NCBI GenBank assembly: GCA_023134145.1
Contig: JAGLUW010000010.1
Span: 62,001 to 126,000, forward strand
Source of the DNA: Sulfuriflexus sp.
Lineage (GTDB): Bacteria; Pseudomonadota; Gammaproteobacteria; AKS1
Length of the DNA: 64,000 nt
Direction of reading: 5' to 3'
The notes below the pieces were generated by a model. That model had not been told where the DNA came from. It did not search any database and worked only from the letters and a program-made list of their open reading frames with translations. A program made the position numbers and the translations under genes. Of the stretch, positions 2,879 to 40,276 are shown in pieces. The first letter of the stretch is position 1, and every line of letters begins with the position of its first letter.

Positions 2879-2898
2879 TCGCCGTCCGTGGCCAATGC

Positions 2899-4218: not shown

Positions 4219-4413
4219 TTTCCCTGACTCCCATTCCCTGAATTTTCTTTATTTATAATTAGTTAGCGTGATTTTATCGTGCTATTTGTTAAGAATCAAT
4301 AGGTTTGTAATAGAATTATGCTTTACAGAAGACAGCGATAAAGCCACTTAATTGATTATTAAGATTTACTCAATGTTTGATTAGGCGCATTTGTTGTTGA
4401 ATCAGATTTATGG

Positions 4414-5637
4414 TTAATTTACTTTGTTGAGCAAGACCACACCTACTGGGCCTACTGGGCCTACTGGCGCGGGTGCTTGAACTGGTTCTGGCGCTAAAAC
4501 GAGTGCTGGAGCTGTGTAAATTGGCACATCGTAAGTTGGTGTGGCTTCAAATGCTTGTGGTGTGGTGAGGGATATAATGCTATCGAGCTCTGCATTAGCA
4601 CTAGAAAGTGACTTGGCATTCTTCTTTTTGTTTGTTGGATTTAGAAAGCCGATTAGGATGCCGCTTTTATTAAATACATCAACACTACCACTAAAATTAC
4701 CTTGGCTATTTTTAACTGTGCCACTCAGACCATTCGTAATAAAGGCTGTTATACCTTTGAGTTTATTAACGCCACCGCCTTGAGGAGTATCGGGGGTAAT
4801 TGGTGTCGTATCGGAAGCAGCTGTATTACCAAAGGTCATGTTACCTTGGTTTTTAATCAGACTAAGAGGGCTATCGTTAATTTCGAAAGATTGAGAACCA
4901 CCATTTATTCCGTCTTCGCCAGTACTAGTTGGACCAACTTTGGCTGCTACGATAGAGTTAGCCTTTAAACTATTACCACTACCTGTTTCGGGAGCAACTT
5001 GATCTAAGTCGGCTTGGTCATTTTTCTGTTCAGCATCGCTTCCAGCTTCGGTAGGGATGGTTTCTTCGATTCCCTCTGGTTGAAGACCATTGCCCTGGCT
5101 GTTTTCGGCATTCCCATTGCCCGTGTTATTACTATTAGATTTTTTTGTTGATGGGCTCTGCTCATTGGAGACCACTGAACTTACTTGTAGGCCGATATTA
5201 TTTTGAGGAGCATTAGCAACAGCACCGGCTTTACCTAATAACTTATTACCAACGGCAATAAATTGAGCACCACCATTTTCAAGAATGTCACCTGGAAAAT
5301 AACGGAATTGTCCATTGTGAACACGGATAATACTGCGACCAGGTTTACCGTCTTTGGCTTCCTCATAAACTTCGACGCTGGCATGTGCACCTGGGCCGAG
5401 TGTCAGCATGCTTTCATCATTAAACAGAATTGTGGTACTGCCTTCGCCACCTGTTTTTAATGCATCACCTTCATCAATGGTGTCATTAACGACAAACTTA
5501 CCTTTACCAACAAGACTAGAATCGACAGCAATCGCACCAATGCCAATTTCAACTTGCTTGGCGGATGATAAAGAACTGACAAACAACAGATTACTTGTTA
5601 TTAGAATAATAGATAATTTTTTAAATGTTGAGTTCAT
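4414..5637 (-). CDS. FecR-domain exported protein (paralog 1)
   Basis: Exported protein of 407 residues from the ATG at 5637. The open frame extends 30 codons further, but this start has an AAGGAA ribosome site and begins directly with a signal peptide (MNSTFKKLSIILITSNLL, cleavage near SSAKQ). Residues about 50-130 form a FecR domain, including LFNDESMLTLGP and GRSIIRVHNGQFRYFPG. The middle is a low-complexity Asn/Ser/Glu-rich stretch, and the end is Pro/Ala/Val-rich with a GPVGPVG repeat. FecR domains are known from TonB-linked signalling and stand-alone envelope proteins; no FecI sigma factor or FecA receptor is nearby. A close paralog lies just upstream. The partner and signal are unknown. 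Confidence 0.85.
   Translation of the reverse strand: MNSTFKKLSIILITSNLLFVSSLSSAKQVEIGIGAIAVDSSLVGKGKFVVNDTIDEGDALKTGGEGSTTILFNDESMLTLGPGAHASVEVYEEAKDGKPGRSIIRVHNGQFRYFPGDILENGGAQFIAVGNKLLGKAGAVANAPQNNIGLQVSSVVSNEQSPSTKKSNSNNTGNGNAENSQGNGLQPEGIEETIPTEAGSDAEQKNDQADLDQVAPETGSGNSLKANSIVAAKVGPTSTGEDGINGGSQSFEINDSPLSLIKNQGNMTFGNTAASDTTPITPDTPQGGGVNKLKGITAFITNGLSGTVKNSQGNFSGSVDVFNKSGILIGFLNPTNKKKNAKSLSSANAELDSIISLTTPQAFEATPTYDVPIYTAPALVLAPEPVQAPAPVGPVGPVGVVLLNKVN
4442..4470. repeat. Short tandem repeat coding GPVGPVG
   Basis: Three near-perfect copies of a 9-base unit (CCTACTGGG on the plus strand) lie in the 3' part of the FecR paralog 1 gene. They code for the Gly-Pro-Val repeats close to its C-terminus. 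Such a tract could vary in copy number by slippage without breaking the frame, because the unit is a multiple of three. Confidence 0.7.
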
Positions 5638-5753
5638 CGTTCTTTTCCTTGAAGAATAAGCGACAAGAATCCTTAGGTAGCCGCTTGTGATTTTGGGTTC
5701 AAATATTTGCTCATTATTTGCACACATTTTACGCTTCTGATTGCGTTTTTTCT

Positions 5754-7115: not shown

Positions 7116-7562
7116 TTATTTTTTAGGAAGTAGAAGTGTTCTCGCGGCTTGTTCCATAGCTGCTTTCGCCTCTGGCGGCATGTAGTTTTCATCATGTTTT
7201 GCTAGCACTTGGTCTGCTTTGAATTCACCTGTTTGGAGTAACTTTCCTTGCACCACCACGCCTTGTCCTTCGCGGAATAGATCCGGCAGGATACCTTTAT
7301 AAGTCACGTTGATATCTTTGATTGTGTCGGTGACGGTAAAGCTGACCTTTAGACCATCTTTGTTATGTTTAACGCTGTTGTCTTTTACCATACCGCCTAA
7401 ACGAAAGGTTTGGTTAATCGGCGCTTTGCCTTCGGAAATATCTGTTGGCGAGTGAAAGAAGACGATGTTGCTGCTAAAGGTATTCAGAATAAGCAGGGTT
7501 ACTGCGCTTAAACCAAATACAGCTAATGCAATAAAACTAATTTTCTTATGACGCGGTTTCAT
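7116..7562 (-). CDS. ccmE: Cytochrome c maturation heme chaperone CcmE
   Basis: CcmE takes heme from CcmC/CcmD in the periplasm, binds it covalently and passes it to CcmF/CcmH. The 148-residue protein has an N-terminal anchor (about 9-28) and a soluble OB-fold domain. Near the C-terminus is VLAKHDENYMPPE, where the histidine is the heme-binding residue and the nearby Tyr is also conserved. Length is normal for the family. It is the last gene of a ccmABCDE run and overlaps ccmD by 17 bases. Confidence 0.96.
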   Translation of the reverse strand: MKPRHKKISFIALAVFGLSAVTLLILNTFSSNIVFFHSPTDISEGKAPINQTFRLGGMVKDNSVKHNKDGLKVSFTVTDTIKDINVTYKGILPDLFREGQGVVVQGKLLQTGEFKADQVLAKHDENYMPPEAKAAMEQAARTLLLPKK

Positions 7563-7707
7563 GTTGCTGCCTTATCTTTCGTTGTTGTGCGCGATATTTA
7601 CGTAGCGGTAACCATATATTGAGGCCAAGAATAACAAACGCGAGTATATAGCTGCCCCATACGTTGAAGGCATGTCCTCCCATGTTAAAGAATTCAGCCC
7701 AGTTCAT
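7546..7707 (-). CDS. ccmD: Heme exporter protein CcmD
   Basis: Small membrane protein (53 residues) that stabilises the CcmABC-CcmE complex and helps release holo-CcmE. The open frame extends seven codons upstream, but the ATG at 7707 overlaps the ccmC stop as ATGA, the usual coupled arrangement. The protein begins MNWAEFFNMGGHAFNVWGSY, a typical CcmD start, has one membrane helix (about 16-36) and a basic cytoplasmic tail. The call rests on this motif, size and position between ccmC and ccmE. Confidence 0.93.
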   Translation of the reverse strand: MNWAEFFNMGGHAFNVWGSYILAFVILGLNIWLPLRKYRAQQRKIRQQHETAS

Positions 7708-8429
7708 GCGCCTTGCTCCTGCAGCCAACGTGAATCGGCTTCGTTGTCGAGAATACTTGATCGCATACGTATAAGGACAACACTGACGTAGAAAAGTTTA
7801 AAAGCGACAGCCATGATAAGTAGTGGCGTTAAAATGCTGCTATGAATTCGTGGGCCATCGATTCGAGCTACTGACGTTGGTTGGTGCAGGGTGTTCCACC
7901 ATTCTACTGAATAATGGATTACGGGTAGGTTGATAACACCAATGAGTAATAAAATAGCACCTGCTCGTGATGCGCGGCGAGGATCATCAATTGCCGAGTG
8001 TAATGACATAAAGCCAAGATATAAAAATAGCAGAATTAATTCTGATGTGAGTCGTGCATCCCATACCCACCATGCTCCCCACATGGGTTTACCCCAGAGT
8101 GAACCGGTGAGAAGCGCAAGTAGAGTAAACGAAGCACCAATTGCAGCGCTGGCGGTAATGAAAGTGTCGGTGAGTTTTATTTTCCAAACAAGTCCAATTG
8201 CGGCAGCGCCAGCCATCATTGCGTAGATGAACATCGACATCCATGCTGCGGGCACATGAATGAACATAATACGAACTGTTTCACCTTGTTGGTAGTCAGG
8301 TGGAGCGACAAATAAACCAAGATAGAGACCAGCGCAAATAGTCAAAATGGCGAGTGTGCCAAACCACGGTAAACATTTACCAGCAAGAGGGTAAAAATAT
8401 TTTGGTGCAGCGTATTTTTGAAATATCAC
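7704..8429 (-). CDS. ccmC: Heme transporter/handling protein CcmC
   Basis: CcmC loads heme onto CcmE. The 241-residue protein has six predicted membrane helices and the tryptophan-rich periplasmic motif WGAWWVWDARLTSELILLF shared by heme-handling proteins. Conserved histidines precede and follow it (FIHVPAAWMS and VIHYSVEWWNTLHQ). The start is a GTG at 8429 with an AAGGA site nine bases upstream. A 71-base gap separates it from ccmB and it overlaps ccmD by four bases. Confidence 0.96.
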   Translation of the reverse strand: MIFQKYAAPKYFYPLAGKCLPWFGTLAILTICAGLYLGLFVAPPDYQQGETVRIMFIHVPAAWMSMFIYAMMAGAAAIGLVWKIKLTDTFITASAAIGASFTLLALLTGSLWGKPMWGAWWVWDARLTSELILLFLYLGFMSLHSAIDDPRRASRAGAILLLIGVINLPVIHYSVEWWNTLHQPTSVARIDGPRIHSSILTPLLIMAVAFKLFYVSVVLIRMRSSILDNEADSRWLQEQGA

Positions 8430-8500
8430 TGCAATGTTCCTTGAGCGTGTAATGTTTGCATGGGCATAGTTTACCAGAACTTGTTTTCTAAAAGTGCCTA

Positions 8501-9187
8501 CTAGTCTAAGGATACTCTTAATGCATAACTGGTGACCCAGGGTGCAAAAATGAGTGTTATTATAAGGTATGCGCCGATGAGGGATAAATGCCCTTCGGCT
8601 GAGAATCCATTACTCGCCGCGATAATCGCGCCAGTGGAAAAGATAAGCACCGGTATGTAGAGCGGTAAAATCAGCAGCGCCAATAACACGCCGCCACCGC
8701 GAAGCCCTAATGTAAGCGCAGCACCAATGGCACCGATGAGGCTTAGAATAGGTGTGCCGAGCAAGAGGGTTAACATGGTGTAAATCAGGGCGGTTGAGGA
8801 CATATCCAAACTAAGTGCAAGCAGCGGGCTGATTAAAACCAAAGGCAGGCCGGTGGTTAACCAATGCGAGACGATCTTCGCGAAAACTAAAACACTGGCT
8901 GGTTGCGGTGTCAGTAGCAGCTGCTCAAGTGTGCCATCGTGTAATTCATTATTGAATAGACGTGCAAGGGACAGAAGCGTGGCTAATAGTGCCGCAACCC
9001 AAATTACCCCGGGGGCGATGGTGCGTAATATTTCTGGTTCTGGACCAACACCTAAAGGAAATAAGCTGATAACAATAATAAAAAATATCAGCGGCGTAAG
9101 TATGTCGTTACGTTGCCGATAGGCGAGTAACAATTCGCGTTTTAATACGCGTTGCCATGATGCAAGTAGCCCTAGGTTATGTGTCAT
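8501..9187 (-). CDS. ccmB: Heme exporter ABC permease CcmB
   Basis: Membrane subunit of the CcmAB ABC complex, which uses ATP to release heme-loaded CcmE from CcmC. The 228-residue protein has six hydrophobic segments. Its N-terminal stretch RELLLAYRQRNDILTPLIFF and PLGVGPEPE are typical of CcmB. The ATG at 9187 overlaps the ccmA stop as ATGA, implying translational coupling. Confidence 0.95.
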   Translation of the reverse strand: MTHNLGLLASWQRVLKRELLLAYRQRNDILTPLIFFIIVISLFPLGVGPEPEILRTIAPGVIWVAALLATLLSLARLFNNELHDGTLEQLLLTPQPASVLVFAKIVSHWLTTGLPLVLISPLLALSLDMSSTALIYTMLTLLLGTPILSLIGAIGAALTLGLRGGGVLLALLILPLYIPVLIFSTGAIIAASNGFSAEGHLSLIGAYLIITLIFAPWVTSYALRVSLD

Positions 9188-9792
9188 GAACCCAGCACCA
9201 CATTAATGCTGACATGCGAAATAAAACTCGCTTCTTGGTGTGTTGTTACTATCGCCATACCACCATTTTCTAAATGCTTAGCAAGACGTTGACTAAACCA
9301 TTCAACGGCATCCACGTCGAGTGCGGCGAGAGGTTCATCAAGAATCCAGAGTTTACGTGATTCAAGTAATAATCTTGCAAGCGCAACACGACGTTGTTGG
9401 CCTTGCGATAAAAGCCGTAAGGGTTTGTTGAGATGATGACTTAAACCAACTTCTTCAAGCGCAGAAAAAACCATTGTGCTGTTTGATAGTTGTTGGGTAG
9501 AAAGTTGCAGATTTTCTAGTGCATTCAGATCGCTGTGCATGCCATGACGATGACCTATATAAAGAAGGTCGGCATTAAAGGCATCACGGTTAGACTCAAT
9601 ATTTTTTTGTTGCCAAGAAATATCGCCATTTACAGGAAGGGTTAAACCGCAAAGCATGCGTAGTAAGGTTGTTTTGCCGCTGCCGTTACTGCCACTAAGG
9701 TGGAGTAGGTCACCATCTTTTAATGAGAATGAAACATCAGAGAAAAGTCGCTGGCCACCACGTTCGGCAGCCAGCGCATTAGCTTGTAACAT
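9184..9792 (-). CDS. ccmA: Heme exporter ABC ATPase CcmA
   Basis: ATPase subunit of the CcmABCD complex, 202 residues, standard length. Walker A is GSNGSGKTT, the ABC signature is LSQGQQRR and Walker B is LWILDEP, followed by a H-loop (TTHQE). The gene starts only 18 bases after the stop of the decaheme LVIVD cytochrome gene, with no visible terminator between. The ccmABCDE run is therefore probably read through from the multiheme cassette. Confidence 0.96.
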   Translation of the reverse strand: MLQANALAAERGGQRLFSDVSFSLKDGDLLHLSGSNGSGKTTLLRMLCGLTLPVNGDISWQQKNIESNRDAFNADLLYIGHRHGMHSDLNALENLQLSTQQLSNSTMVFSALEEVGLSHHLNKPLRLLSQGQQRRVALARLLLESRKLWILDEPLAALDVDAVEWFSQRLAKHLENGGMAIVTTHQEASFISHVSINVVLGS

Positions 9793-9810: not shown

Positions 9811-12800
9811 TTAACGTCGGCGAAGTGATTTATTCTTTTCATCACGTACCATATCGTCGAGTTTTGCTTCGTCATGGACGAAGTAAGGTGAACCATGTTC
9901 ATCGAGATAAAGTTTCTTCATTTCGTCTAAGGTGAATGGACGTGAACCAATACGGCCGAAGACAGCGATTTGACCACCCGTTTCATCTACTGCACGGTCA
10001 CGATCTAGCCCCTTAGAAAGCGCGAGGGCAGGTGACTTCGTTGGTGCCGTTGCTATCAACTCTGGTACAGGTTCAGGACTAAAGCCGTAGAAGCGTGGTT
10101 GTGAATCAGGGGAAGTCAGCTGCAGTACTTTAAGGCCGTTCTTACCATCAGCAACATAGCCAATTAATGAGGCATTAGTACTCGCAACAACAACATCACG
10201 TGCATCGTTAAGCTGGCCGTCCGCGGTGTACTTCATGTACAACTTAGGTTGCTCTGCTTTTTCAACATCGATAATGACTAGACCTTCACTACCACCAGCA
10301 ACGTAAGCGTAGGTGCGCGCAACGTAGATACGGTGGCCGTCTTTGAGAGGTACAAATGCGTCCTTAACAACTTTAGGTTGTTCTGGAACAGTGACATCAA
10401 CAACCTTAAAGCCTTCATCATCAGTTACAAATAAGTAACGGAATTGCAGGGCAGTGGCACGTGGGTTCTTCATAGGAATAACATTAAGCAATCTCGGTTT
10501 GCTTGGGTTATCCATATTGAGAACGACAATACCTTTCGGTGTAGTGATGTAGAAGTAGTAACCAGCAATTGTTAAGTGGCTAGCACCATCAAGAATACCA
10601 TTCTCATTCCACGTTATTGTTCGTTCGAAGAAGTTATTGCGTGGTTCACCATCTGAAAGCGTGTTGATGTCGACAACAATCAAACCTTCTTCAGAATCGG
10701 TGATGAACATGCTGTCGTAAATCGCATGCATTTGTTGCTCAAGGTTAACCTCTTGCATCATTTTACTACGACTACGTACCGCATGAATGGGTTGCGTGGT
10801 CGGTAAGACAACACAAGTTGCATTCTTCGACTTGATGCGCGTGTTATGTCCTAGCGGACTAAACGGTGCGGTAATGATACGTTGCGAGAAGCCTTTGTTG
10901 GCAATACTCGCGACGTCATAGGCCTGCGTACCATTAGTGCCTTCAGAGACAAATAAGTATTCGCCACGCATTTGCAAACAGTTGGCTGCATTAGAATCAT
11001 GACGGAATACGTACTCTAATTTTTCTGGCAACACACGGTTGTTGTCTAAATGATCTTTAAACCAATCCGGGTAGGCATACTTATGTAAGTAACTACCAAT
11101 AACTGCTTGCGGTTCTTCCCACTCAGTAACACGTTGACCAATAACTTGATCTTCGGTTCCGACCCAAGCGTAGTAACCAACGAAGTTAACGAAGTTGGTA
11201 CCCATCAATAACAATTGCGACATGATGGCATTGTTGTCGTTTGCTTCAGACAAGTGACAATCAGTACAGGTCTTGGTTTCCGTTTTACGCGTGGTATGCG
11301 GGAAGTGTGGTGCAAAGGCTTGCGAACTGTAACCACTGGCTGCAATCGGTGGCTGCTGAATATAAAGCAGCTCACGGTTTACGTTACGTGAAGATAGAAC
11401 CAATGCAGATGAAGAACGTACCGGTGCGATACGGCCACCTTTAACTGGGCCATGTTTACCAAGTTGGTACATTTGGTCACGAACCACTTGTGGATTGTAA
11501 GTTGCGTAGTTACGTGTTTCGCCACCTTCATAATGGCCACGTTCTGTTTTCCAATTGGCTTGAACAGGTAAGTGACAGCCAGCACAACTGGTTGCCCAAG
11601 AACTGTGACAAGTGAAACAAAGAATTTCTTCGTTCTTATGCGCACGATCTTTTTTCGCAACACCAGGACCCCATTCAAAGGTATCTGTGTTTTGTGACAT
11701 TAACTTAGCGCGAGCAGACTTGGCATTGAAGTCTTTATGATCAGGGTTAACATTGTTTTTAACCAGTGACATTTCCCATTCACGATCAGGCCACAAAGAA
11801 GAACGTTGAATGAGTTTATCGCCACGCCATTCAAAACGTTTTTTACCCGTCGGCGTACGAAGTAATGACAGGTCGTTACCACCAGGAGGTGCTGCTGGCC
11901 CTGATGTTAACAGTGTAGGATATTCATCCGAGGTGCCGTGACAATCCATACAATCGATTTCTACAGCTTGTGCTACTTCACCATAGATATGACCATTGCC
12001 ATGTGAGTCTTGGGCAAAGTGACAATCGACACAATGCATACCGACATCAAGGTGAATTGATGACATGTGTACAGCTTTCTTAGCCCACTCAGGATCTTTT
12101 TCTGAAACGATCTTGCCTTCAGCATCGAGTAGGTTGCCTTTACGATCACGTTTGAAGATGGCGCGGAAGTTCCAGCCATGACCATGATAGTCAGCGAATT
12201 GAGTATCTTTAAGTTCGTCGTTGTTATCCCAAACTTTTTCTAGGAATTCACGGTCACTCCACTTACCACGGATAGCCGCTTCTTCAGGGTTATGCTCATT
12301 GATTTCGCGAATCTCGGCATCAGTTGGGTAGCGTTGTTCTTTCGGCCACATGCTAGGTGCATCTGACTCGTAATCCCACATGGTGTAACCAAGGTAACTG
12401 TTCACGAATACATTTGGTTGGTGCATGTGACAGTTCATACACAGTGAGGTTGGAATTGCACGTGAGAACTCGTGTTTAATTGGATGACCTGATTCATCTT
12501 TATCAATAGTTGGGTCAACAGTTTGGGTTTTACCTTTATGACCAAATTCAGCATAAGGACCTGAATGACGTGGGTCACGATCATTGGCGTAAACAACATG
12601 ACATGAAGAACAACCAGAAGAACGGAAGTCACCTGGACCATCATTGGTACCGAGGAACCAAAGGAACGGATCGTTCAAACGCGTCTTGGTAATATTAAGT
12701 ACAGGTACTGAAATACGTAGACCGGTTCCTGGACCACGGTTTGATTGTTTTAAATCAGGACGGCCTGGTTCTTCTAATTGCTGAATGCGGCCAAGCGAGT

Positions 12801-13593
12801 TTGGTAAGCCTGTTTCTGCGAACAAGTTAACAATGTTACGACCGCCACGCTCAAATACGCGGAAGACATCACCAGGAGGTGTCGTTTCCCATGCGGGTAG
12901 TGGGAATAGTTGTGCTAATGCGCCTTTGGCAGCCATTTCAGGTGTTGGTTTAACAGGTGCAACTAATGATGCAGGCTCACCATCGCGTGTGTAGGCTTCG
13001 CCAAGAATATATTGTTTGAAAGGTAGAATACCGTTGTTATAAGAACCACCACCCCAAAGCATAATACCGGTGGCCATCATGCTGCGTTCACTGGCCTGAA
13101 TAATCGGTAAGTGACAAGCACCACAGGCTTCACGTGCAATACGCAGATCGCCAGGGTTTACGAAACGAACAAACTCAGCGCTTTCGTTATTTAATAAGGT
13201 AAAACTAATCTCTGGGTTGGCACTGCTTGGGTAATTCCAGCGACCAGGGAAACGCGGTTGTACATGGCCTTTGTCGAGAGCGGCACGATAAGCCGCATCA
13301 CCTTTCTTGGTGTTCTCTGGTTTATTAATGGTTGAATCACCACCATGACAATCAGTACAGCCAAGTACAACGGCAGGACTGGCATGCATGGTTTTACGAT
13401 CTGATTTAGAATGACACGTAATACAACCGGCACTTTTAGGGTCGGCTTCTTTCCATGTCTGATGTTTAGGTGCGTCAGGCGTAACGGCATATTTAATATC
13501 ACGAGGCTTCTCGATATTAGATGCCAACGCAAATACGCTTGCGCTGCAAAGCAGGCCTATAGTTAATAAGCGGCTGAGTAGTGGTTGTTTCAT
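9811..13593 (-). CDS. Decaheme c-type cytochrome with C-terminal LVIVD repeats
   Basis: Exported protein of 1260 residues from the ATG at 13593 (a GTG directly before it is also possible). After a signal peptide (about 1-25) come ten CxxCH heme sites, among them CITCH, CTDCH, CGACH, CSSCH, CMNCH, CVDCH, CMDCH, CFTCH, CAGCH and CTDCH, spread over about the first 800 residues. From about residue 890 the protein turns into repeats of the LVIVD type (such as EGLIVVDI, KGIVVLNM, EGFKVVDV and EGLVIIDV), which usually build a beta-propeller. A cytochrome fused to a propeller suggests a periplasmic or surface electron carrier or oxidoreductase; the substrate is unknown. It is the last cytochrome gene of the cassette, directly before ccmA. 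Confidence 0.85.
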   Translation of the reverse strand: MKQPLLSRLLTIGLLCSASVFALASNIEKPRDIKYAVTPDAPKHQTWKEADPKSAGCITCHSKSDRKTMHASPAVVLGCTDCHGGDSTINKPENTKKGDAAYRAALDKGHVQPRFPGRWNYPSSANPEISFTLLNNESAEFVRFVNPGDLRIAREACGACHLPIIQASERSMMATGIMLWGGGSYNNGILPFKQYILGEAYTRDGEPASLVAPVKPTPEMAAKGALAQLFPLPAWETTPPGDVFRVFERGGRNIVNLFAETGLPNSLGRIQQLEEPGRPDLKQSNRGPGTGLRISVPVLNITKTRLNDPFLWFLGTNDGPGDFRSSGCSSCHVVYANDRDPRHSGPYAEFGHKGKTQTVDPTIDKDESGHPIKHEFSRAIPTSLCMNCHMHQPNVFVNSYLGYTMWDYESDAPSMWPKEQRYPTDAEIREINEHNPEEAAIRGKWSDREFLEKVWDNNDELKDTQFADYHGHGWNFRAIFKRDRKGNLLDAEGKIVSEKDPEWAKKAVHMSSIHLDVGMHCVDCHFAQDSHGNGHIYGEVAQAVEIDCMDCHGTSDEYPTLLTSGPAAPPGGNDLSLLRTPTGKKRFEWRGDKLIQRSSLWPDREWEMSLVKNNVNPDHKDFNAKSARAKLMSQNTDTFEWGPGVAKKDRAHKNEEILCFTCHSSWATSCAGCHLPVQANWKTERGHYEGGETRNYATYNPQVVRDQMYQLGKHGPVKGGRIAPVRSSSALVLSSRNVNRELLYIQQPPIAASGYSSQAFAPHFPHTTRKTETKTCTDCHLSEANDNNAIMSQLLLMGTNFVNFVGYYAWVGTEDQVIGQRVTEWEEPQAVIGSYLHKYAYPDWFKDHLDNNRVLPEKLEYVFRHDSNAANCLQMRGEYLFVSEGTNGTQAYDVASIANKGFSQRIITAPFSPLGHNTRIKSKNATCVVLPTTQPIHAVRSRSKMMQEVNLEQQMHAIYDSMFITDSEEGLIVVDINTLSDGEPRNNFFERTITWNENGILDGASHLTIAGYYFYITTPKGIVVLNMDNPSKPRLLNVIPMKNPRATALQFRYLFVTDDEGFKVVDVTVPEQPKVVKDAFVPLKDGHRIYVARTYAYVAGGSEGLVIIDVEKAEQPKLYMKYTADGQLNDARDVVVASTNASLIGYVADGKNGLKVLQLTSPDSQPRFYGFSPEPVPELIATAPTKSPALALSKGLDRDRAVDETGGQIAVFGRIGSRPFTLDEMKKLYLDEHGSPYFVHDEAKLDDMVRDEKNKSLRRR

Positions 13594-13625
13594 CACGCGT
13601 GGTTCATTCCATGTTGTGTTACGTA

Positions 13626-15500
13626 TTAGTAAGTAAGAATTAGGTTGGCGAGAACAGAGTAAGATGTTTCGTCACCGTATAATTCTTCGAAACCTTCTCC
13701 GGGTAATAATGCGGCGGCAGAAAGTCTGAATACAATATTTTGGCTAAAGAATGGGCGGTAGATACCTGATACAGATAAATCCCAACCGATATCATTATCA
13801 ATTGAACCAACTTGGCGGAAAACTTCTAGCGATGATGTATTAGCAAAGCCAAGTTTATTTGCATTGACTGATACGCGCCATTCCGGTGTAAGATCAAAAT
13901 CAGCACCAACACCAATCAGTGTGGTACCTGGATTTAAGAAGTTAGATTGACCTTGTTCCTTTGATGTCCGTAATGAGTTGAGTACACCATTACGTGCAGA
14001 CAATGCTACGCCACCACCACCAATATTGGCGACAGGTTGACGAATCCAGAAACTGGTATCAGCACCTGCAAATTGTGGGTTTTCAAAAATAGCATCAAAG
14101 CCCTGAGAAACATTGTCGAACGGATCTTTATCGCCACTGGCGTAAAGGCCGGATAGACGTAGACGAATCCAGTCAAAATCCATTGAGGCTTCGGCTGCAA
14201 CAAAGAAAGCATCAATGCGAGTCTTATCATTAAAGAGAGCATTGCGATCTTCATGACCAGTAGCATAGTACCAAGAGCTCGTCAGGTTAAGACGACCAAA
14301 GTGACCATCGCCATTAAGGCCTAAGTAAGTAACGTCATAGTTTCGTGGTCGTCCATCACCGAGGGGTGCAGGGCGCTGCAAGAAACCATTGGTATCATAG
14401 AATAGGCCATCTTCACCTTCACGATTTCGATTGTGAATAATCGTTGCTTGCGATGTGTGACCTACAACAGGAAAATCTTGTTTGTAAATGTTGGCGATAA
14501 AAACATCGTCATCACGTAATGCTTTTGATGTATCGTTTAGACCACTATTAAGATCTTTATCTACGCGACGAAACCAAGCTAAGTTATATTGCCAGAAATT
14601 ATTATCGCGGTTACCAAATAAACGAATACCAAATTGTTGGTCTTGGAATAAGAAGCCACGGAAATCAGAGTTGAAGGGCTGAATACCAATACGGATCGAA
14701 TCAAAGTCATACCGGTCAGATACGTTACGCAGATGTTTATCCCAGAACAGTTCCTGAAGGCCTACGTGAGTATCCCTACGAACATTGCCGCGTCCCGGGT
14801 TAATACTAAGCACACGATCTTCTTCTACTTCAACGCGGTTGTAGTTAAAGGCCAGTGTTAGGCGGAATTCATGATCGGGTGGCTTAAATGCAGTATCACC
14901 TTTATATAAAACAAACGCGGTGATTAATGTTTCACTAAATATAGTTTGATCTCGTCCACCAAAAACATCGAGGGCACCTGCAGAACGACTTGTTTGGGGA
15001 GATACAGGTGTAGGCAGGCGACGTGGTTCATAAACTGTATCTGAAATGACACCTAGGCTAAAGAACCAATCATTGGTACCTAAGATAGGTCGATCACCTT
15101 TTAGCGTGTTCTGATTGTAAGGATCAAACCAACGTTCGTTTACACCAACAGCTTCAACAATACGGTAGCGATCAGGAACAGGTACAACTGGATGCGGCAA
15201 GTTTGGATTCGAAATCGCGATAGGGCGTAGATCAGTATTACGGTTTGGATCAACCTGCTTAGGTGCAGGACGATCAGGTTCGCGCTCAGCACCTGGGCGT
15301 CGACGTGTTGCATCAGCAACGAGCCATTGTTCTTCTGGTGATTGATAAGCCCAAGGTGAATCATTTTGTTCGCTTACTGCATCTTGATCGCTGCTTAAAG
15401 TAAAGCCTGCCTCACGAATACTGAATTCATTTGCCAAGGCAATTTTGGCAGATAGAGACAGGACGAGAAATAAAGTGCTATGTGATTTAAAAATTCGCAT
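13626..15500 (-). CDS. Outer-membrane beta-barrel protein of the cytochrome cassette
   Basis: Protein of 624 residues from the ATG at 15500, two bases after the stop of the preceding lipoprotein gene; the frame reaches six codons further upstream. A signal peptide (about 1-23, ending near IALANEF) and a proline/arginine-rich linker (about 50-110) precede about 480 residues of alternating strands rich in Tyr, Phe, Arg and Asp. The protein ends in SVLANLILTY, consistent with a barrel. I do not recognise a named family. Placed between cytochrome genes, it may act as the porin sheath of a porin-cytochrome conduit, as MtrB does for MtrA, but no sequence similarity to MtrB can be claimed. Confidence 0.7.
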   Translation of the reverse strand: MRIFKSHSTLFLVLSLSAKIALANEFSIREAGFTLSSDQDAVSEQNDSPWAYQSPEEQWLVADATRRRPGAEREPDRPAPKQVDPNRNTDLRPIAISNPNLPHPVVPVPDRYRIVEAVGVNERWFDPYNQNTLKGDRPILGTNDWFFSLGVISDTVYEPRRLPTPVSPQTSRSAGALDVFGGRDQTIFSETLITAFVLYKGDTAFKPPDHEFRLTLAFNYNRVEVEEDRVLSINPGRGNVRRDTHVGLQELFWDKHLRNVSDRYDFDSIRIGIQPFNSDFRGFLFQDQQFGIRLFGNRDNNFWQYNLAWFRRVDKDLNSGLNDTSKALRDDDVFIANIYKQDFPVVGHTSQATIIHNRNREGEDGLFYDTNGFLQRPAPLGDGRPRNYDVTYLGLNGDGHFGRLNLTSSWYYATGHEDRNALFNDKTRIDAFFVAAEASMDFDWIRLRLSGLYASGDKDPFDNVSQGFDAIFENPQFAGADTSFWIRQPVANIGGGGVALSARNGVLNSLRTSKEQGQSNFLNPGTTLIGVGADFDLTPEWRVSVNANKLGFANTSSLEVFRQVGSIDNDIGWDLSVSGIYRPFFSQNIVFRLSAAALLPGEGFEELYGDETSYSVLANLILTY

Positions 15501-15502
15501 AA

Positions 15503-17548
15503 TTATTTTCCAGCACAAACGTTGTTATCTGAGCTTCCAATATATGGGTTTTGTGGACATTGAATATATTTTAGTGCTTCAGTAAATCCTGCTCCTGCAT
15601 TGATAGGAATCTTATCTGCACGTATGGCTTTAGGGGCATTCCCAAAGCCTTTACCAACTTCACCGAGACCATCAACAGAACCATTGGCGTTATTAGCAGC
15701 GTATGCAGCAAGGCTTGCTTCATAAAGACCAAGGAAAGAAATCATGTCATCTTGATCAACACCGTCACCAGAGACACCAATACCACCAACGAGCACACCA
15801 TTTTTATAAATGGGCACCGAGCCAGGGAAAATTTGTATACCATTACGCAGAGGGTTACCTGCAGCGATCTCGGTGCAATCAGTTTCATCATCAGCACCGC
15901 CTGTTAAATGTTCAACAACTTCATCGAGTACTAAATCAAGCTGTAGTCCATTTGAGAAGGGGCTCCATTGATTGACGGCTGCGTTGGTTGAGAAGGATTT
16001 ACTAAAAGGCCCATTGCTGTTCGCATCCACGCCATCTGGGTAGAACGGACGTGAAAGATTACCACCAGAGCGATCAGCAAAAGCAAAATCACCAGTTAAA
16101 TCACCAACAGCAACACCAATGAAGGTACGTGCGGCTGCAGAATAACCGGAAATAGTAGAGTTGTATCCGTTGACAGCATTAAGAGAAGTGACAGTTCCCG
16201 CTCCATCTAAATCGGTTTCACCATCATTACTGCTGAAGAAGGTTGCTGTACGTGCTTTTTGTAATGAAACATCAGTGCCGAATAACGGTGCATCACGTGT
16301 TCTGGCAATTGCCAAGATAGTGCCGTCAATATCAACGATTGAAATACTCACGCGTGCCTGACTATTAAGAGGGCGACGAATTTGTGCACGTGAACGATTA
16401 GCGACCGCAAGTGCACCACGTATGATTTGAGTAACTTCGGTCGTGAGTAACTGTTCACCACCATTCATAGCACCATTTGCAAGAGGGTGACGAAGATTAC
16501 CCGCGCCATCGGTTAAGACAAAGGCATCAAGCCCTGGATATAAAGCGGCATCAACAACATCTGCATCTTCAATACCGGAGTCAGCTGCGGCAAAAGTAGT
16601 GCCTGCACGTATACCACCGGCCAGTAAGAAATAAAGTCCAGTTGAATCATCGATTAAAGCGCCAGCGGCTGGAGGGAAGGTGGCTACCGCAGGGTTTGGA
16701 GTAGCTAGGTCACCGCTATCAACATCAGAATAACGTAAAGAGCGACCATCAACAGTAATACGATTCGCTTGTCGATCAACTGATGGCGCAAAACCAAATT
16801 GGCCAGCGATGGCGATTAATTCATCAATATTGCTATCTGTATTGAGAATATTCCGGTCAATACCGTAGACTCCATCGGCGATGACACCAATAGCACCAAC
16901 AGGATGTCCATTTTTGTATAGAGGTAGGCCGCCAGGATCAGCCGATAAGCCAAGTGGTGCACGGCGTGGTCCTAAACCAATTGCATTACCTTTTTGTACC
17001 AGATCACCACAGGGTAGTTGACTGAATTGCACACCAAATAATGGACCACCGGGTGTGCCTTGCTCATGAGGGTTGAAATGTTCCTGGATTATCTGGCTGG
17101 CAGTACGCGTGCTGAAGGCATTACCTTCTGATGCGAGATAAGAACCGGTAACAGCTTTTGAAATAGCCGCTAGTGAGTTATCTAAAACGTTAACGTTTTC
17201 TAAACCAAAACCACCATTGACTAGACCAGATGTAATATTAAAAGTTGTCGCACCACCAATCCGGTAGATAGCAAGTACATTACCAACACGATCCGTCACA
17301 GCGATAGTGACATTAGCCGCACCTCGGTTTGATGCTTCTAATGCGGCTTGAGCAATGACTTGTTGCACATTAGTAACGGTCAGATTTGCAGGACTACTGG
17401 TCGCACAAAAACCAGTACAGCCAGAATCAGCGTTACTACCTTGCGCGGCGCGATTACCACCACTGCCACCACCACCGCCACCACAGGCAGTAATGAGAGT
17501 CAGGCTGGCGAGCAGCGCGATGCTGCGTGTGAGTTGTGCTACGTTCAC
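15503..17548 (-). CDS. Lipoprotein with two GlcG/HbpS-like (DUF336) domains
   Basis: Protein of 681 residues with a lipoprotein signal (LITAC, lipid Cys at about residue 22) and a glycine-rich linker after it. Two copies of a GlcG/HbpS-like domain follow. The first (about 50-275) includes VTIAVTDRVGNVLAIYRIGG and PLYKNGHPVGAIGV. The second (about 375-640) includes VSISIVDIDGTILAIARTRDA and PIYKNGVLVGGIGVSGDGV. HbpS-type domains bind or sense heme in some bacteria, whereas other members have no known ligand. Both copies carry long insertions relative to the usual 130-150 residues. In this cassette it may handle heme or interact with the cytochromes; that is inference. Confidence 0.72.
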   Translation of the reverse strand: MNVAQLTRSIALLASLTLITACGGGGGGSGGNRAAQGSNADSGCTGFCATSSPANLTVTNVQQVIAQAALEASNRGAANVTIAVTDRVGNVLAIYRIGGATTFNITSGLVNGGFGLENVNVLDNSLAAISKAVTGSYLASEGNAFSTRTASQIIQEHFNPHEQGTPGGPLFGVQFSQLPCGDLVQKGNAIGLGPRRAPLGLSADPGGLPLYKNGHPVGAIGVIADGVYGIDRNILNTDSNIDELIAIAGQFGFAPSVDRQANRITVDGRSLRYSDVDSGDLATPNPAVATFPPAAGALIDDSTGLYFLLAGGIRAGTTFAAADSGIEDADVVDAALYPGLDAFVLTDGAGNLRHPLANGAMNGGEQLLTTEVTQIIRGALAVANRSRAQIRRPLNSQARVSISIVDIDGTILAIARTRDAPLFGTDVSLQKARTATFFSSNDGETDLDGAGTVTSLNAVNGYNSTISGYSAAARTFIGVAVGDLTGDFAFADRSGGNLSRPFYPDGVDANSNGPFSKSFSTNAAVNQWSPFSNGLQLDLVLDEVVEHLTGGADDETDCTEIAAGNPLRNGIQIFPGSVPIYKNGVLVGGIGVSGDGVDQDDMISFLGLYEASLAAYAANNANGSVDGLGEVGKGFGNAPKAIRADKIPINAGAGFTEALKYIQCPQNPYIGSSDNNVCAGK

Positions 17549-17579
17549 TGAAACTTCCCCTACATAAATCTTTTATTGT

Positions 17580-19328
17580 TTACTTAATATTTTTATCCAT
17601 ACGCTCGGCAGTTGCCGACATTGCTTTTCGAGCAGGCATGCCTTTGCGATCACCGAGCAAGAAATCTTCGGCAATATGGAAACCATGACAATCAACACAG
17701 GTTGACTCAATCTTGTTATGCGCAGCTTCCGTGCCAGCATGACACTGCTGACAATTATCAATCGCTGGAATTAATACATCACCACTTTCTTCAGACTTAG
17801 CTGCATCATGACAATCAGTACATTGCATAGTTTGGTGTTTGTTATGTACAAAGCGTGCTTTTGGTAACCAGGTGTCGGCTAAACGAACCGGTGCAATTTC
17901 CCATTTAGGTGCATCGCCATCGCGCAAGTTACCATCACTCACTTTAGTTACATCGTGGCAGGTTGAACAAACGCGATCTTCAAACAAGTCTTCACCAACG
18001 TCGAAGGCTTTTTGTTTTGCCCAGAGGAAAGCATCTTTGCGTTCACGTTTCGTAATACGTTGACCTGGACGACGACGGTTGCGAACAACAGCAGGGGCAT
18101 CAAGATCATCATAGCCACCCTTGAGTGCTAAGTTGCCGTAGTACTCAGTTAGGGTATATAGAATATGTTCAAGGTTGCCATGTGGAACAATGCGATCAGG
18201 AATGTCGGCTTCAAATTCAAGACGGTGACATTCAGAACAATGATCTTTCATAACGATAGGCTTCATGCCAATGCCGCCTGGTTCTGCTTGGTGACAATCT
18301 GCACAAACCATAACGCGTGAACCACCTGGGGCATCAACACCTTCTACGGTTAGATGTTTGTCATGTGGGAACTTCAAGTTCGATGTTTCAACTGGCTTAT
18401 CTTTCAACGCTTCACGGTTAGTGGAGAAGGTTTTTGCCCTAGCATCAAAACGGAACATGGTTGCTTTAAAGTCAGGGTGGTTATTACCAAAGTCCTGAAC
18501 ATTAGTCAGGTCGGTACCAGTCGTTGTATCAAGATCTTTATGACAGTCGCCACAAAGTCCTTCATCACGACGAACTAAACCATCACGGCCATTGTGTTCT
18601 TTATGACAGGTTGCACAACGCGTTTCGTTTAAGCCTGATAGCTCAAAGAATTGTGGATCGGCATGTGTGTGTGTTTCGGTGTGACAAGTTGCACAAGCGG
18701 TATCACGTACGGTAGTGAAGGCTTCTTGGTGACAGGCCTTACAGTCGTTAGCAAAGAAAGTATGTGCAGATTCAAATTCACCCGACTTCCATGCAACATC
18801 TGCAGTGATCGGCGCATCTTTAAATACATCTCGAACAGCATCAGAGAAAAAGGCACTAATAGGTAAAACCAGGAACAGGAGAGAAATAATCGTGTAGAAA
18901 ACCCATGACCAACGACGGCGACTAAAACCGGTTGCAGCTAATGTTGTTGTAGATCGTTGTTTTAATTGTTCTAAGTCATCGCCTAATTGGCGAACCAATT
19001 CAATGGTGATGTCGAGATCTTGACCTTCTTCGGCAGAGATAACTTCAATGTCGTATGGGCCAACCGCGATCTTATCGCCTTTATTAAGACGGGTACTTTG
19101 TGCGATGGCATTGTTTACACGAAGATCAGAACCTGATTCAGCTTCAATATAGTAACGACCTTGACGGTCATGAATGGTTGCATGGTGTAAGGAAACGCGG
19201 AAATCAGATAGGTAGAGTTCATTCTCGGTACTACGCCCGACACGAATACTGGAACCCGATACGATTTCGTCTATATGAGTGACGCCACCGCGGGACTTAC
19301 GTGTGAGAAAACTGACTTTACACTGCAT
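17580..19328 (-). CDS. FHA domain-TM-decaheme cytochrome c fusion
   Basis: Protein of 582 residues. The frame opens 31 codons earlier, but that part overlaps the upstream gene; the ATG at 19328 is eight bases past that gene's stop and starts an FHA domain (about 10-100, with SIRVGRSTENELYL and SDFRVSLHHATI). One membrane helix (about 141-161) follows, then a periplasmic part with ten CxxCH heme sites (CKACH, CATCH twice, CGDCH, CADCH, CSECH, CSTCH, CTDCH, CQQCH and CVDCH). FHA domains bind phosphothreonine peptides in the cytoplasm, so the protein joins a kinase-type readout to a periplasmic electron wire. I know of no characterised member with this architecture. Confidence 0.85.
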   Translation of the reverse strand: MQCKVSFLTRKSRGGVTHIDEIVSGSSIRVGRSTENELYLSDFRVSLHHATIHDRQGRYYIEAESGSDLRVNNAIAQSTRLNKGDKIAVGPYDIEVISAEEGQDLDITIELVRQLGDDLEQLKQRSTTTLAATGFSRRRWSWVFYTIISLLFLVLPISAFFSDAVRDVFKDAPITADVAWKSGEFESAHTFFANDCKACHQEAFTTVRDTACATCHTETHTHADPQFFELSGLNETRCATCHKEHNGRDGLVRRDEGLCGDCHKDLDTTTGTDLTNVQDFGNNHPDFKATMFRFDARAKTFSTNREALKDKPVETSNLKFPHDKHLTVEGVDAPGGSRVMVCADCHQAEPGGIGMKPIVMKDHCSECHRLEFEADIPDRIVPHGNLEHILYTLTEYYGNLALKGGYDDLDAPAVVRNRRRPGQRITKRERKDAFLWAKQKAFDVGEDLFEDRVCSTCHDVTKVSDGNLRDGDAPKWEIAPVRLADTWLPKARFVHNKHQTMQCTDCHDAAKSEESGDVLIPAIDNCQQCHAGTEAAHNKIESTCVDCHGFHIAEDFLLGDRKGMPARKAMSATAERMDKNIK

Positions 19329-19336
19329 GATTCGGC

Positions 19337-20170
19337 CTACCAGTAAAAGAAGATTGAAACGACATGTGCGGTGAGTGCAGCAAGTAAAGCAAATGAAAGT
19401 GGCACATGGAAATACAACCAAATGTCCATCATTGCTTTGTACTGCACATCGCGACGTGCGCGTTGAACAAGTTCACATTTTTTGCCAAGTAATGTCATTA
19501 GGTGACTTGCATCACCGGCCATTTCTTTTGGCAGTAATTTATTTAATTCACCGGCCTTATTAAATGCGGCCAATGTTGCACAGTTACTATCTTTGCCGGA
19601 TAGTTGTTGCCAAACGGAGCCACCAATCTTGGTGTTCTCACTGCAATCGAGTATGCACTTATTAATTTCATCAGTAAGTTGTGCTGCGGCTTCGCGACAT
19701 TCACGATCAAGCTCAGACATTTCAACCAGCATGAGCTCTAAGGTATTACCACGACGATTTTTTGTCATTAAAGCGGGGTAACGCAGGTAGGCGTAAACGC
19801 CAAAGATGCCACTAAAGATAACAATGAACATTAATATGTAGGCAAGGGTGTGAATGTTCCAACCAATTTGGAAACCCGCATGTAGAGTGGCAATAATAAT
19901 CAGTGCAACACCTAGGTAAACATGAGCAGATAACCAACCTTGTACTTGACCCATATCTGATTTGTAAGAACGCTTGCGCATACCAAACCACATAAGCAAT
20001 AAAATAATCGCCGCACCTAATCCGCCGAGTGTATAACCCAACCACGTACCACCGTTAGGGCCATCAACAGGCGTGTGAATTGCGTAAGCAATCACTGACG
20101 TGATAATTAAGACCATACAGAGTTTGAAGTAACGATAACCACTGTAAACAAAAAGCGACTGATGCATCAT
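19337..20170 (-). CDS. Cytochrome b-like membrane protein
   Basis: Protein of 277 residues with about five membrane helices. Histidines sit in the positions expected for b-heme ligation: AHVYLGVALIIIATLHAGF in the middle and HVPLSFALLAALTAHVV at the end. Between helices lies a soluble segment of about 95 residues with four cysteines and a hydrophobic-charged heptad pattern. The gene lies 12 bases after the fused oxidoreductase gene and eight bases before the FHA cytochrome, so it probably carries electrons between these two across the inner membrane. It could belong to the cytochrome b561 or ferric-reductase-like groups; the exact family is uncertain. Confidence 0.65.
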   Translation of the reverse strand: MMHQSLFVYSGYRYFKLCMVLIITSVIAYAIHTPVDGPNGGTWLGYTLGGLGAAIILLLMWFGMRKRSYKSDMGQVQGWLSAHVYLGVALIIIATLHAGFQIGWNIHTLAYILMFIVIFSGIFGVYAYLRYPALMTKNRRGNTLELMLVEMSELDRECREAAAQLTDEINKCILDCSENTKIGGSVWQQLSGKDSNCATLAAFNKAGELNKLLPKEMAGDASHLMTLLGKKCELVQRARRDVQYKAMMDIWLYFHVPLSFALLAALTAHVVSIFFYW

Positions 20171-20182
20171 TGCTAACGTGTC

Positions 20183-22615
20183 CTAGTAATTTTCAAGGTT
20201 AGTGACAGACATAAACTCGCCTGGGTTAACGCGAATTGCTGCGCCTGTTGGGCATGCCCTTACACAAGATGGGCCGCCGGAGATGTCTTTACACATATCG
20301 CACTTAACTGCCATTTTCTTCGCGTCGGGATCTTTCTTCGCTGCTGCGGCATCATGGCCACCAGGTGCGATACCGGCACCGGTTAACAGCCAAGAAACTA
20401 AGCTGGTTTTTTGTTTCTTCGATACCAAGGCCATTTGGATTACGCCGTAAGGGCAGTTGCGCTGACAGTTGCCACAACCGATACAGTTGTTGGCAATATA
20501 AACTTCACCATTTTCGGCACGATGAATCGCATCCGGTGGGCAATCTTGCATACAGTGTGGATGTTCACAGTGACGACAAGAGGTTGGAACATGTAGTGCA
20601 GCAAAAGTAGGGCCGGCTTCACGATCAAGACGCGAAGTACCAAAGTGTGTATCGGCACAGGCCTTTTCACAGTTGTCGCAACGAACACAAAGTGATTCGT
20701 CGATTAATAGTACATCGGTTGCTTCACCAAGACCTTGTTCAACTAAGAAGCTAATAATTGTGCCGGAATCAGAGTTGTCTTCCATTTGCACGTTAGCTTG
20801 CTTACGGTTATCAATAACTTCTTGAACGCGTTTACGAACGTCTTCATCTTCATCGGCTAATTTGCGGAAGGCATCACCATCAAGACAAATTGTTTCAGTG
20901 GCAACGGCAGCACGTATTGTTGCAGAACGCATGTCATCACCGAATAAAGCCATTTCACCAACGTAGTTACCCGCAGGCAAGTAAGACAGTACAACTTCTT
21001 TGCCGCCGACTGTTTTAGAAACAGTGAGCGAACCTGAACGCACCAAGTGCAAAGTATCGCCTTCATCACCTTCGTGGAAAAGTTCTTCGCCAGCTTTGAA
21101 ACTTTGTAATGTCGCGGTACTAATAACAGACTGTAATTTTTCAACAGAAGTATTTGGTGCAATCTTCGCTTGCAGTGCGCGCATTAAGAAAGCTTCATCA
21201 ATAACACGTTTAACAGATTCAACTGAGCTAATAGTTTTGTTCATTGAACGACGTGGCGTTTCAATGAGCACACAGTTCTTACCAGCAAGAATAGTTGCGG
21301 AACGACGGTGACCAGAAATCAAACTCATTTCACCAAAGAACGCACCTTTGTTTAAAGAGATTCGCTGGCTAGGATCTTGAGGATTAATTTGCACTTGAAC
21401 TTCGCCACCAACAATAGAATAGAAGGTGTTAGTGAAATCATCGCGTTCGAAAATGATTTCGCCTTCAGCCGGTGTGCGCATGTCGCTGTCGATCATGAAT
21501 TCACGTAACTGCAATGTTGTTAGACCCGATAGTAATGGGACGTTGGTAGTAATCATCTCTAATACGTTGCTAACAGACATATTATTGTTGCGAGCACTAA
21601 AGCTGCGGAATTTTTCTTTTAGTAAAGGTTCGTCTGCAGGCTCAACATCGTTACCTTCAATAAACTCGATAACTTCATAACCTTGGTTCATTGCTGATTT
21701 AATTAACGGGTAACCAGCAAGCGCGCCAACAATATATAAACCAGATACATTTGATTCGTATTGATCGGTAAGCGCAGGAACAGCAGAAGGATCATCACTT
21801 GGGAATTCAATACCACAAGACTGCACAAAGCGACGTGGCGCAATGGCACCAAGACGAGCAATGATGCGGTGACAATTAACTTCTGTTTCACCGCTCTTGG
21901 TAGATAAAACGATTTTACCAATTTCACCGGAGCCTAGGGCTTCGCCAAATTTTTCAACTTTAACGGTGTTGGCAAAATAGTAAGGAGTAATAACGTTGGT
22001 ATCGATGGCTTTATTAATACCATCTTCGTTACCTTGTTTAGCACGAGAGAATTCATCTTTTCGGTTAACAATAATAACGTTGTTTTGTTTGGTCAGTGCG
22101 AGGGCATTTTCAATTGCGGCATCACCGGCACCGATAACAACAATTGTTTCATCGGCATATTCATCAGGATCATCGAGCTGGTATTGAACCATGTCGAGAT
22201 CCTCACCTTCAACGCCGAGTTTACGAAGGTTACCCTGTAGACCGATACCTAATACAACGAATTCAGCAGTAATGGTTTCACCAGACTTGGTCTTGATGCT
22301 GAAATTACCTTTTTCACCGCCGATCTCAGTGACTTCAGTGTTGTATTTAACATTGGTATTGTGACCGGCAACCTGGGTATTCCATATTTCAAGAATATGT
22401 TCGCGGGTACCTGCAGTAAAATCGAGCGGACTACGTAGGGGAAGAACCTGTGGTTCGTCCATGACGTGTTTGCCTTTCTGGTACTTAAAAATCGTATCAG
22501 ATAGGTGGTCGGTACTTTCCAGTAACACGTGTGATAAGCCTAGTTCTGCAGCATGTGAGGCAGCACTCATGCCGCCAGGACCAGAACCAATGATGGCGAT
22601 TTTGAAATCGGCCAT
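20183..22615 (-). CDS. Fused FAD/NAD(P) oxidoreductase, two cNMP-binding domains, 4x[4Fe-4S]
   Basis: Cytoplasmic protein of 810 residues with four parts in order. First is a thioredoxin-reductase-like flavoprotein (about 1-320): FAD motif IIGSGPGGMSAASHAAE, NAD(P) motif VVIGAGDAAIENALAL. Then come two cyclic-nucleotide-binding domains (about 355-470 and 490-605), each with the phosphate cassette intact: GEMSLISGHRRSAT and GEMALFGDDMRSAT hold the Glu and Arg-Ser that contact the nucleotide in CRP-like proteins. Last is a DmsB/HycB-like ferredoxin part (about 640-800) with sixteen cysteines in four groups, enough for four [4Fe-4S] clusters. It should move electrons from NAD(P)H to the membrane protein encoded next, under cAMP or cGMP control. 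It leads the cassette and has a strong GGGGGAG ribosome site. Confidence 0.88.
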   Translation of the reverse strand: MADFKIAIIGSGPGGMSAASHAAELGLSHVLLESTDHLSDTIFKYQKGKHVMDEPQVLPLRSPLDFTAGTREHILEIWNTQVAGHNTNVKYNTEVTEIGGEKGNFSIKTKSGETITAEFVVLGIGLQGNLRKLGVEGEDLDMVQYQLDDPDEYADETIVVIGAGDAAIENALALTKQNNVIIVNRKDEFSRAKQGNEDGINKAIDTNVITPYYFANTVKVEKFGEALGSGEIGKIVLSTKSGETEVNCHRIIARLGAIAPRRFVQSCGIEFPSDDPSAVPALTDQYESNVSGLYIVGALAGYPLIKSAMNQGYEVIEFIEGNDVEPADEPLLKEKFRSFSARNNNMSVSNVLEMITTNVPLLSGLTTLQLREFMIDSDMRTPAEGEIIFERDDFTNTFYSIVGGEVQVQINPQDPSQRISLNKGAFFGEMSLISGHRRSATILAGKNCVLIETPRRSMNKTISSVESVKRVIDEAFLMRALQAKIAPNTSVEKLQSVISTATLQSFKAGEELFHEGDEGDTLHLVRSGSLTVSKTVGGKEVVLSYLPAGNYVGEMALFGDDMRSATIRAAVATETICLDGDAFRKLADEDEDVRKRVQEVIDNRKQANVQMEDNSDSGTIISFLVEQGLGEATDVLLIDESLCVRCDNCEKACADTHFGTSRLDREAGPTFAALHVPTSCRHCEHPHCMQDCPPDAIHRAENGEVYIANNCIGCGNCQRNCPYGVIQMALVSKKQKTSLVSWLLTGAGIAPGGHDAAAAKKDPDAKKMAVKCDMCKDISGGPSCVRACPTGAAIRVNPGEFMSVTNLENY

Positions 22616-40263: not shown

Positions 40264-40276
40264 AATTAGTAGTCTT

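Follow-up and report, generated by a model that had tools for sequence, protein, structure and literature searches.

Among described systems, PCC4 offers the closest comparison with the locus analysed here. The main text of He et al. 2017 (PMC5566968) presents it as a putative porin-cytochrome c complex whose parts are a porin, cytochromes with 4, 5 and 10 hemes, an inner-membrane protein (IMP) and a pfam13247 gene. The IMP of PCC3 and PCC4 is recognized there by five transmembrane helices, an SGXXG motif on TM4 and a WX3HX13H motif on both TM3 and TM5, and the authors interpret its histidine pairs as two b hemes. A role of PCC4 in extracellular electron transfer has only been hypothesised, having been proposed for Fe(II) oxidizers (PMC5566968). 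A second relevant system is the Uet complex of Tenderiales and Gallionella, whose described gene set joins a barrel with cytochromes and with propeller proteins (NHL) (PMC10734462). The same paper lists an FHA-decaheme type in the Gallionellaceae without a function.

We analysed a 64,000-nucleotide stretch of a Sulfuriflexus sp. draft genome (2.3 Mb, 40 contigs), referred to here as the window; the nearest named relative of this genome is an uncultured gammaproteobacterium MAG (locus L053). A first-pass annotation had described a six-gene multiheme cassette with a particular order, spacing and set of domains. Open reading frames and Pfam matches agree with that description: all six genes, A to F, lie on the minus strand, separated by 12 (A-B), 8 (B-C), about 31 (C-D), 2 (D-E) and about 30 (E-F) bases, and the barrel is supported by a structural model. 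The annotation had missed two flanking cytochrome c maturation (ccm) blocks and a tetraheme partner, which we count as the seventh component. The features are as follows.

569-2878, minus strand: CHASE2 plus class III nucleotide cyclase (PF05226, PF00211)
2899-4218, minus strand: TPR/barrel protein next to the cyclase; relatives in loci L044 and L119 match TPR/SlipAM families
4414-5727, minus strand: FecR-like protein next to the cyclase, by resemblance only; itself without a Pfam match, with relatives in L044 and L119 that match FecR families
7116-9792, minus strand: ccmE, ccmC, ccmB and ccmA, cytochrome c maturation (from ORFs)
9811-13596, minus strand: F, predicted exported decaheme cytochrome with a C-terminal LVIVD beta-propeller, 1261 aa
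13626-15500, minus strand: E, predicted outer-membrane beta-barrel, AlgE-like, about 18 strands, 624 aa
15503-17548, minus strand: D, predicted secreted protein with two HbpS-like domains, 681 aa
17580-19328, minus strand: C, predicted cytosolic FHA domain, one TM helix and periplasmic decaheme cytochrome, 582 aa counted from the ATG kept in relatives
19337-20170, minus strand: B, predicted inner-membrane protein with five TM helices, bis-His sites for two b hemes and an IMP signature of the PCC3/PCC4 type, 277 aa
20183-22615, minus strand: A, predicted cytosolic FAD/NAD(P)-type oxidoreductase with two cNMP-binding domains and four [4Fe-4S] clusters, 810 aa
23070-27549, plus strand: ccmF, ccmG, ccmH and ccmI, cytochrome c maturation (from ORFs)
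27649-28989, plus strand: tetraheme cytochrome of a cytochrome c554-like family, the seventh component

The ccm blocks flank the cassette on both sides, with the tetraheme gene following the ccmI-side block, and both blocks adjoin the cassette across the genus. C, E and F are absent from the complete genome G002, which is given as the same genus and whose ccmF is 44% identical. In a wider sample, ccm genes lie near the cassette in 16 of 95 fetched loci from three classes, in varying arrangements, as would be expected for a heme-rich product.

The inner half of the set fits PCC4 as described in the main text of its publication. B matches no Pfam family above cut-off and gives a weak cytochrome b561 match (E 0.0027). 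It nevertheless shows five hydrophobic helices, and its two HX13H pairs are embedded in the motifs W79-x3-H83-x13-H97 on TM3 and W251-x3-H255-x13-H269 on TM5, with SGIFG at residues 120-124 providing the SGxxG motif on TM4. H83, H97, H255 and H269 are invariant in 15 homologs. Together these features reproduce the IMP signature described for PCC4 and also for PCC3 (PMC5566968). A, whose gene lies 12 bp ahead of that for B, matches PF13247 (E 7e-11) and so takes the place of the pfam13247 Fe-S gene that precedes the IMP gene in PCC4 subgroup II (PMC5566968). C and the tetraheme cytochrome correspond to the 10-heme and 4-heme cytochromes, and the window's tetraheme family is also found beside PCC4-type clusters in L040 and L108.

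C contains an FHA domain (PF00498), a TM helix at residues 143-161 and matches to cytochrome C7/c3 Pfam families, and it is 30-40% identical between classes. Its heme domain has 10 CXXCH motifs and exactly 10 invariant free histidines, the pattern of a bis-His wire. F likewise has 10 CXXCH motifs, which confirms the count of twenty heme sites previously given for the two large cytochromes; the whole unit has 24 c-type heme sites. A proposed phosphopeptide input through the FHA domain fared less well. The Gly-Arg pair is kept in 95% of C homologs, but the phosphate-contact serine is replaced by alanine in 54%, and the domain is missing altogether in 3 of 86 homologs. We therefore rejected a conserved phosphopeptide reader as a general feature of the family.

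The outer half departs from PCC4. The window genome (G000) contains no relative of the PCC4-type pentaheme cytochrome and none of the PCC4 porin, and E showed no match to the PCC4-type porin when the two were compared with hhalign. In place of the pentaheme and porin, the window has D, the AlgE-like E and F with its 10 hemes and propeller. Among the other E- or F-bearing genomes tested, the pentaheme is present in G157 alone; there, the D-E-F set and the pentaheme with a PCC4-type porin lie about 8 kb apart. In this genome (G157:C1 340860-344048, and L039), both outer modules are thus found no more than about 10 kb from a single inner module. Loci with all or most of the PCC4 make-up (L040, L079 and L108), and those with part of it (L066 and L090), carry relatives of window A and/or B and C.

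To what extent these genes belong together can be read from their distribution. Among 369 gammaproteobacterial genomes, C is present in 16, F in 13, E in 14 and the tetraheme cytochrome in 15, with carriers spread over about a dozen families. Pairwise overlaps amount to 12 to 14 genomes (Fisher p 2e-18 to 2e-22, uncorrected for phylogeny); C and the tetraheme cytochrome, for example, occur together in 14 genomes (p 2e-22). The exceptions are mostly contig ends or incomplete genomes: E occurs without F at contig ends in G216 and G367, while G231 (E/F and tetraheme but no C) and G041 (F but no E) are incomplete drafts. C without E and F, found in G031 and G094, is accompanied by reduced or PCC4-type sets.

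A contig scan with B as query returned at least 584 relatives, and we retrieved the 80 best matches; the C alignment offered no sufficiently conserved stretch for this purpose, and gene maps of high-GC loci were made by tblastn. Thirty-nine of the 95 fetched B-bearing loci hold A-B-C-D-E-F in order; apart from one in a Marinimicrobia MAG, they come from alpha- and gammaproteobacteria. Another 10 hold B-C-D-E-F with A not beside B. L046 is the only exception in order or strand. In the Burkholderiales the order is B-C-D-E-F-tetraheme-A with gaps of 30-126 bp (five genomes of the B-F kind tested); an apparent absence of A from this group was rejected, since A sits behind F and the tetraheme gene. 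The tetraheme gene was found in all 37 cassette or PCC4-type genomes tested. It neighbours F in the Burkholderiales and lies within the D-E-F operon of Sphingobium megaplasmids, which divide the set into two operons, tetraheme-D-E-F and A-B-C-phosphodiesterase. The F tree follows the alpha, beta and gamma classes with a few rows excepted. Many members of the three classes keep the set together. The homologs are linked and not scattered singly, bearing out the earlier suggestion of one unit running from cytosol to outer membrane, and we conclude that the seven genes have evolved as one unit whose cofactor sites are conserved.

Several further observations concern individual loci. On the Sphingobium megaplasmids L143 and L144, the complete set is accompanied by a gene for a CcmI-like TPR protein, and pMSHV is typed as conjugative; L143 additionally encodes a two-partner secretion pair as well as a CHAT protein. 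Genome G115 has two cassette copies (L044 and L045). Thirteen loci, most of them from alphaproteobacteria, encode a small secreted protein of about 130-160 aa within the cassette or next to it, lying between C and D (loci L056-L092 and L132). L100, on a contig binned as Lysobacter, has a betaproteobacterial-type cassette nearly identical to that of L103, which is likely a binning error or a recent transfer.

In the outer half, E of the window itself has no Pfam match, and 5 of 43 E homologs match PF13372 (Alginate_exp). An AlphaFold2 model (pLDDT 78.8, pTM 0.76) forms a barrel of 18 long strands, for which Foldseek returned AlgE first (TM 0.61-0.69 by target length) and then OprD-type porins; no MtrB was among the top 50 matches shown. 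The MtrB barrel has 26 strands and is wider than an 18-strand AlgE/OprD-like barrel such as E, whose interior may be too small for a folded multiheme chain. The first-pass annotation had named a substrate-specific porin as the outcome that would count against a conduit, and E goes halfway toward it, resembling AlgE/OprD-type 18-strand porins and not MtrB. D has PF03928 HbpS-like domains behind a lipobox that is present in most gamma and beta homologs and missing from alpha homologs, which led us to reject D as a lipoprotein everywhere.

F carries LVIVD repeats (PF08309), 17 conserved free histidines for its 10 hemes and two invariant cysteines in its propeller, and it is 63-70% identical across the alpha, beta and gamma classes, compared to 30-40% for C. 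This is above expectation for a mere wire and suggests an enzyme. Structure prediction for F (1200 aa, alignment of 32 rows) gave a good propeller and a poor heme part (mean pLDDT 56.6); Foldseek with this model returned generic propellers only, and PDB sequence searches with E and F profiles gave nothing convincing. The AlgE/OprD-like fold of E and the strong conservation of F lend weight to a reading in which no electrons cross the outer membrane: E would admit a specific small, perhaps anionic, substrate, F (with D) would oxidize or reduce it in the periplasm, and the tetraheme cytochrome, C, B and A would merely link F to the cytosol or quinone pool. The conserved residues within a long loop of E, the surplus of histidines in F beyond the bis-His need for 10 hemes, and the segment that F shares with ExtM, a family named by NCBI for a selenite/tellurite reduction operon, are all consistent with such a periplasmic enzyme with its own porin. 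However, no known active-site family was recognised in F, and besides ccm, cyclase and cytochrome genes, no substrate-pathway genes recur within the limited flanks of the cassette. We judge this reading somewhat unlikely, although it stays a serious rival in view of how AlgE-like the barrel is and how strongly F is conserved.

At the cytosolic end, A combines a pyridine nucleotide-disulphide oxidoreductase fold (PF13738), two cNMP-binding domains (PF00027) and Fer4 families. In 71 homologs, all 16 cluster cysteines (four clusters of four) are invariant or nearly so, the GxGPxG and GAGDAA nucleotide motifs (FAD, NAD(P)) are conserved, and the arginines of the two cNMP pockets (GE...R) are kept in 100% and 97%. 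Relatives of the CHASE2 cyclase adjoin the cassette in 7 of 97 loci (L043-L046, L101, L119 and L143), and a cyclic-nucleotide phosphodiesterase-type gene, scoring below family cut-offs, follows C in Sphingobium. Adjacency to a cyclase is therefore recurrent, not general. The pocket arginines together with these cyclase and phosphodiesterase neighbours make a cyclic-nucleotide input to A likely, and this part of the first-pass annotation gains support. The cyclase at 569-2878 is a candidate source of the nucleotide; the window genome encodes only two CHASE2 proteins. The trio of CHASE2 cyclase, TPR/Slam-like barrel protein and FecR-like protein (569-5727) recurs beside the cassette in L043, L044, L045 and L119, and another class III cyclase, which has a PAS domain and two GAF domains, lies on the same contig at window positions 37972-40383.

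Taken together, we favor, at slightly better than an even chance, a trans-envelope multiheme electron-transfer chain whose inner module is PCC4-like and whose outer module is of a different kind. In such a chain, the flavin and four [4Fe-4S] clusters of A would exchange electrons with NAD(P), and its activity would be modulated by a cyclic nucleotide on its two cNMP domains. The two b hemes of B may move electrons through the inner membrane, perhaps also exchanging them with quinol, and C, anchored in that membrane, would carry them through the periplasm with the tetraheme cytochrome. F, docked at barrel E with D, would pass them to an acceptor, or receive them from a donor, at the outer membrane or beyond it. 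We infer the topology, the path A-B-C-tetraheme-F/E, the gating and the direction; electrons may pass through barrel E, or a small substrate may do so instead. F has no lipobox that would point to a surface location, and most hosts are not known as metal oxidizers or reducers, which also weighs against the chain. A narrower version has A-B-C-tetraheme as a modular chain whose entry enzyme is switched directly by the nucleotide of the neighbouring CHASE2 cyclase and whose outer modules, pentaheme plus porin or D-E-F, are interchangeable; we put it forward tentatively and consider it somewhat unlikely as a whole.

The resemblance of a flavoprotein feeding an HX13H two-heme protein to ferric-reductase/NOX logic slightly favors outward flow. 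The opposite direction is compatible with the trans-envelope chain and concerns only its sense: an outer donor, such as Fe(II) or reduced organics, would pass electrons from F through the tetraheme cytochrome, C and B to A or quinone. He et al. 2017 draw PCC4, with which the inner module is shared, as such an inward path (PMC5566968), and a decaheme FHA protein, perhaps a counterpart of C, occurs in 27 of 87 genomes of Gallionellaceae iron oxidizers (PMC10734462). Cassette L068 belongs to a MAG with the isolate name Biocath_Alpha_33, which hints at a biocathode as its origin. Against this, most hosts are not known iron oxidizers, and sequence cannot tell direction; inward flow seems to us quite possible, if short of an even chance. 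The pairing of a flavoprotein with a two-b-heme membrane protein also resembles MsrQ logic, and a module like MsrPQ could use A and B to supply periplasmic targets for redox repair under stress, with the outer part serving in scavenging or protection. Repair should need far less than an outer-membrane barrel and 24 c-type heme sites, and the unit has no repair enzyme, making this explanation very improbable.

Proteobacteria with no known electroactivity, from soil, lakes and the sea or associated with plants, carry this conserved seven-gene electron-transfer set, and it is mobile, as the Sphingobium megaplasmids, one of them conjugative, illustrate. Annotations of its components include 'cytochrome c3 family protein' and 'hypothetical protein'. 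If the set works as proposed, many aerobes would gain a redox route that spans the envelope, and the predicted input to A would be a case of a cyclic nucleotide acting directly on a redox enzyme instead of on transcription. Named strains that carry it, including Sphingobium herbicidovorans MH, Tahibacter soli, Oceanibacterium hippocampi and Lysobacter sp. CAU 1642, make the cassette testable.

How, then, does the set relate to known systems? Its general plan is like that of MtrCAB, MtoAB and PioAB. The match of C to the DmsE/MtrA decaheme family is weak (E 3e-7, 30 bits against a cut-off of 192), and C differs from the MtrCAB cytochromes by its membrane anchor and FHA domain; E is AlgE-like by Foldseek and not an MtrB-type barrel, and the window set contains no match to MtrC. 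Residues 512-783 of F match ExtM of the Geobacter Ext system (extHIJKLMNOPQS) with an E-value of 1.5e-16, at 60 bits against the NCBIfam cut-off of 800, but F has an LVIVD propeller and the gene sets differ. The earlier statement that there was no similarity to MtrCAB or Ext is thus corrected by two matches, both far below family cut-offs. As a side observation, an 11-heme ExtM-like cytochrome of about 800 aa is found in other gammaproteobacteria (L050, L051 and L052), near ccm in L052. The window set resembles Uet, compared by description only, in joining cytochromes, a barrel and a propeller, and differs from the described set with its 11-heme UetJ, triheme UetDEG and isomerase UetB (PMC10734462). 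It shares the IMP signature with PCC3 and has none of the large repeat-rich cytochromes (medians of 21 and 34 hemes) reported there (PMC5566968). In the literature we found no description of the D-E-F half, nor of LVIVD, FHA or alginate-export barrels combined with multiheme electron transfer. The claim of a new conduit is not supported for the inner half, which fits the published PCC4 description. Because the inner module is common to PCC4 and the outer module differs, the best reading of these comparisons is that the window set, with its PCC4-like inner module and distinct outer module, represents a variant of PCC4-like systems rather than a member of PCC4.
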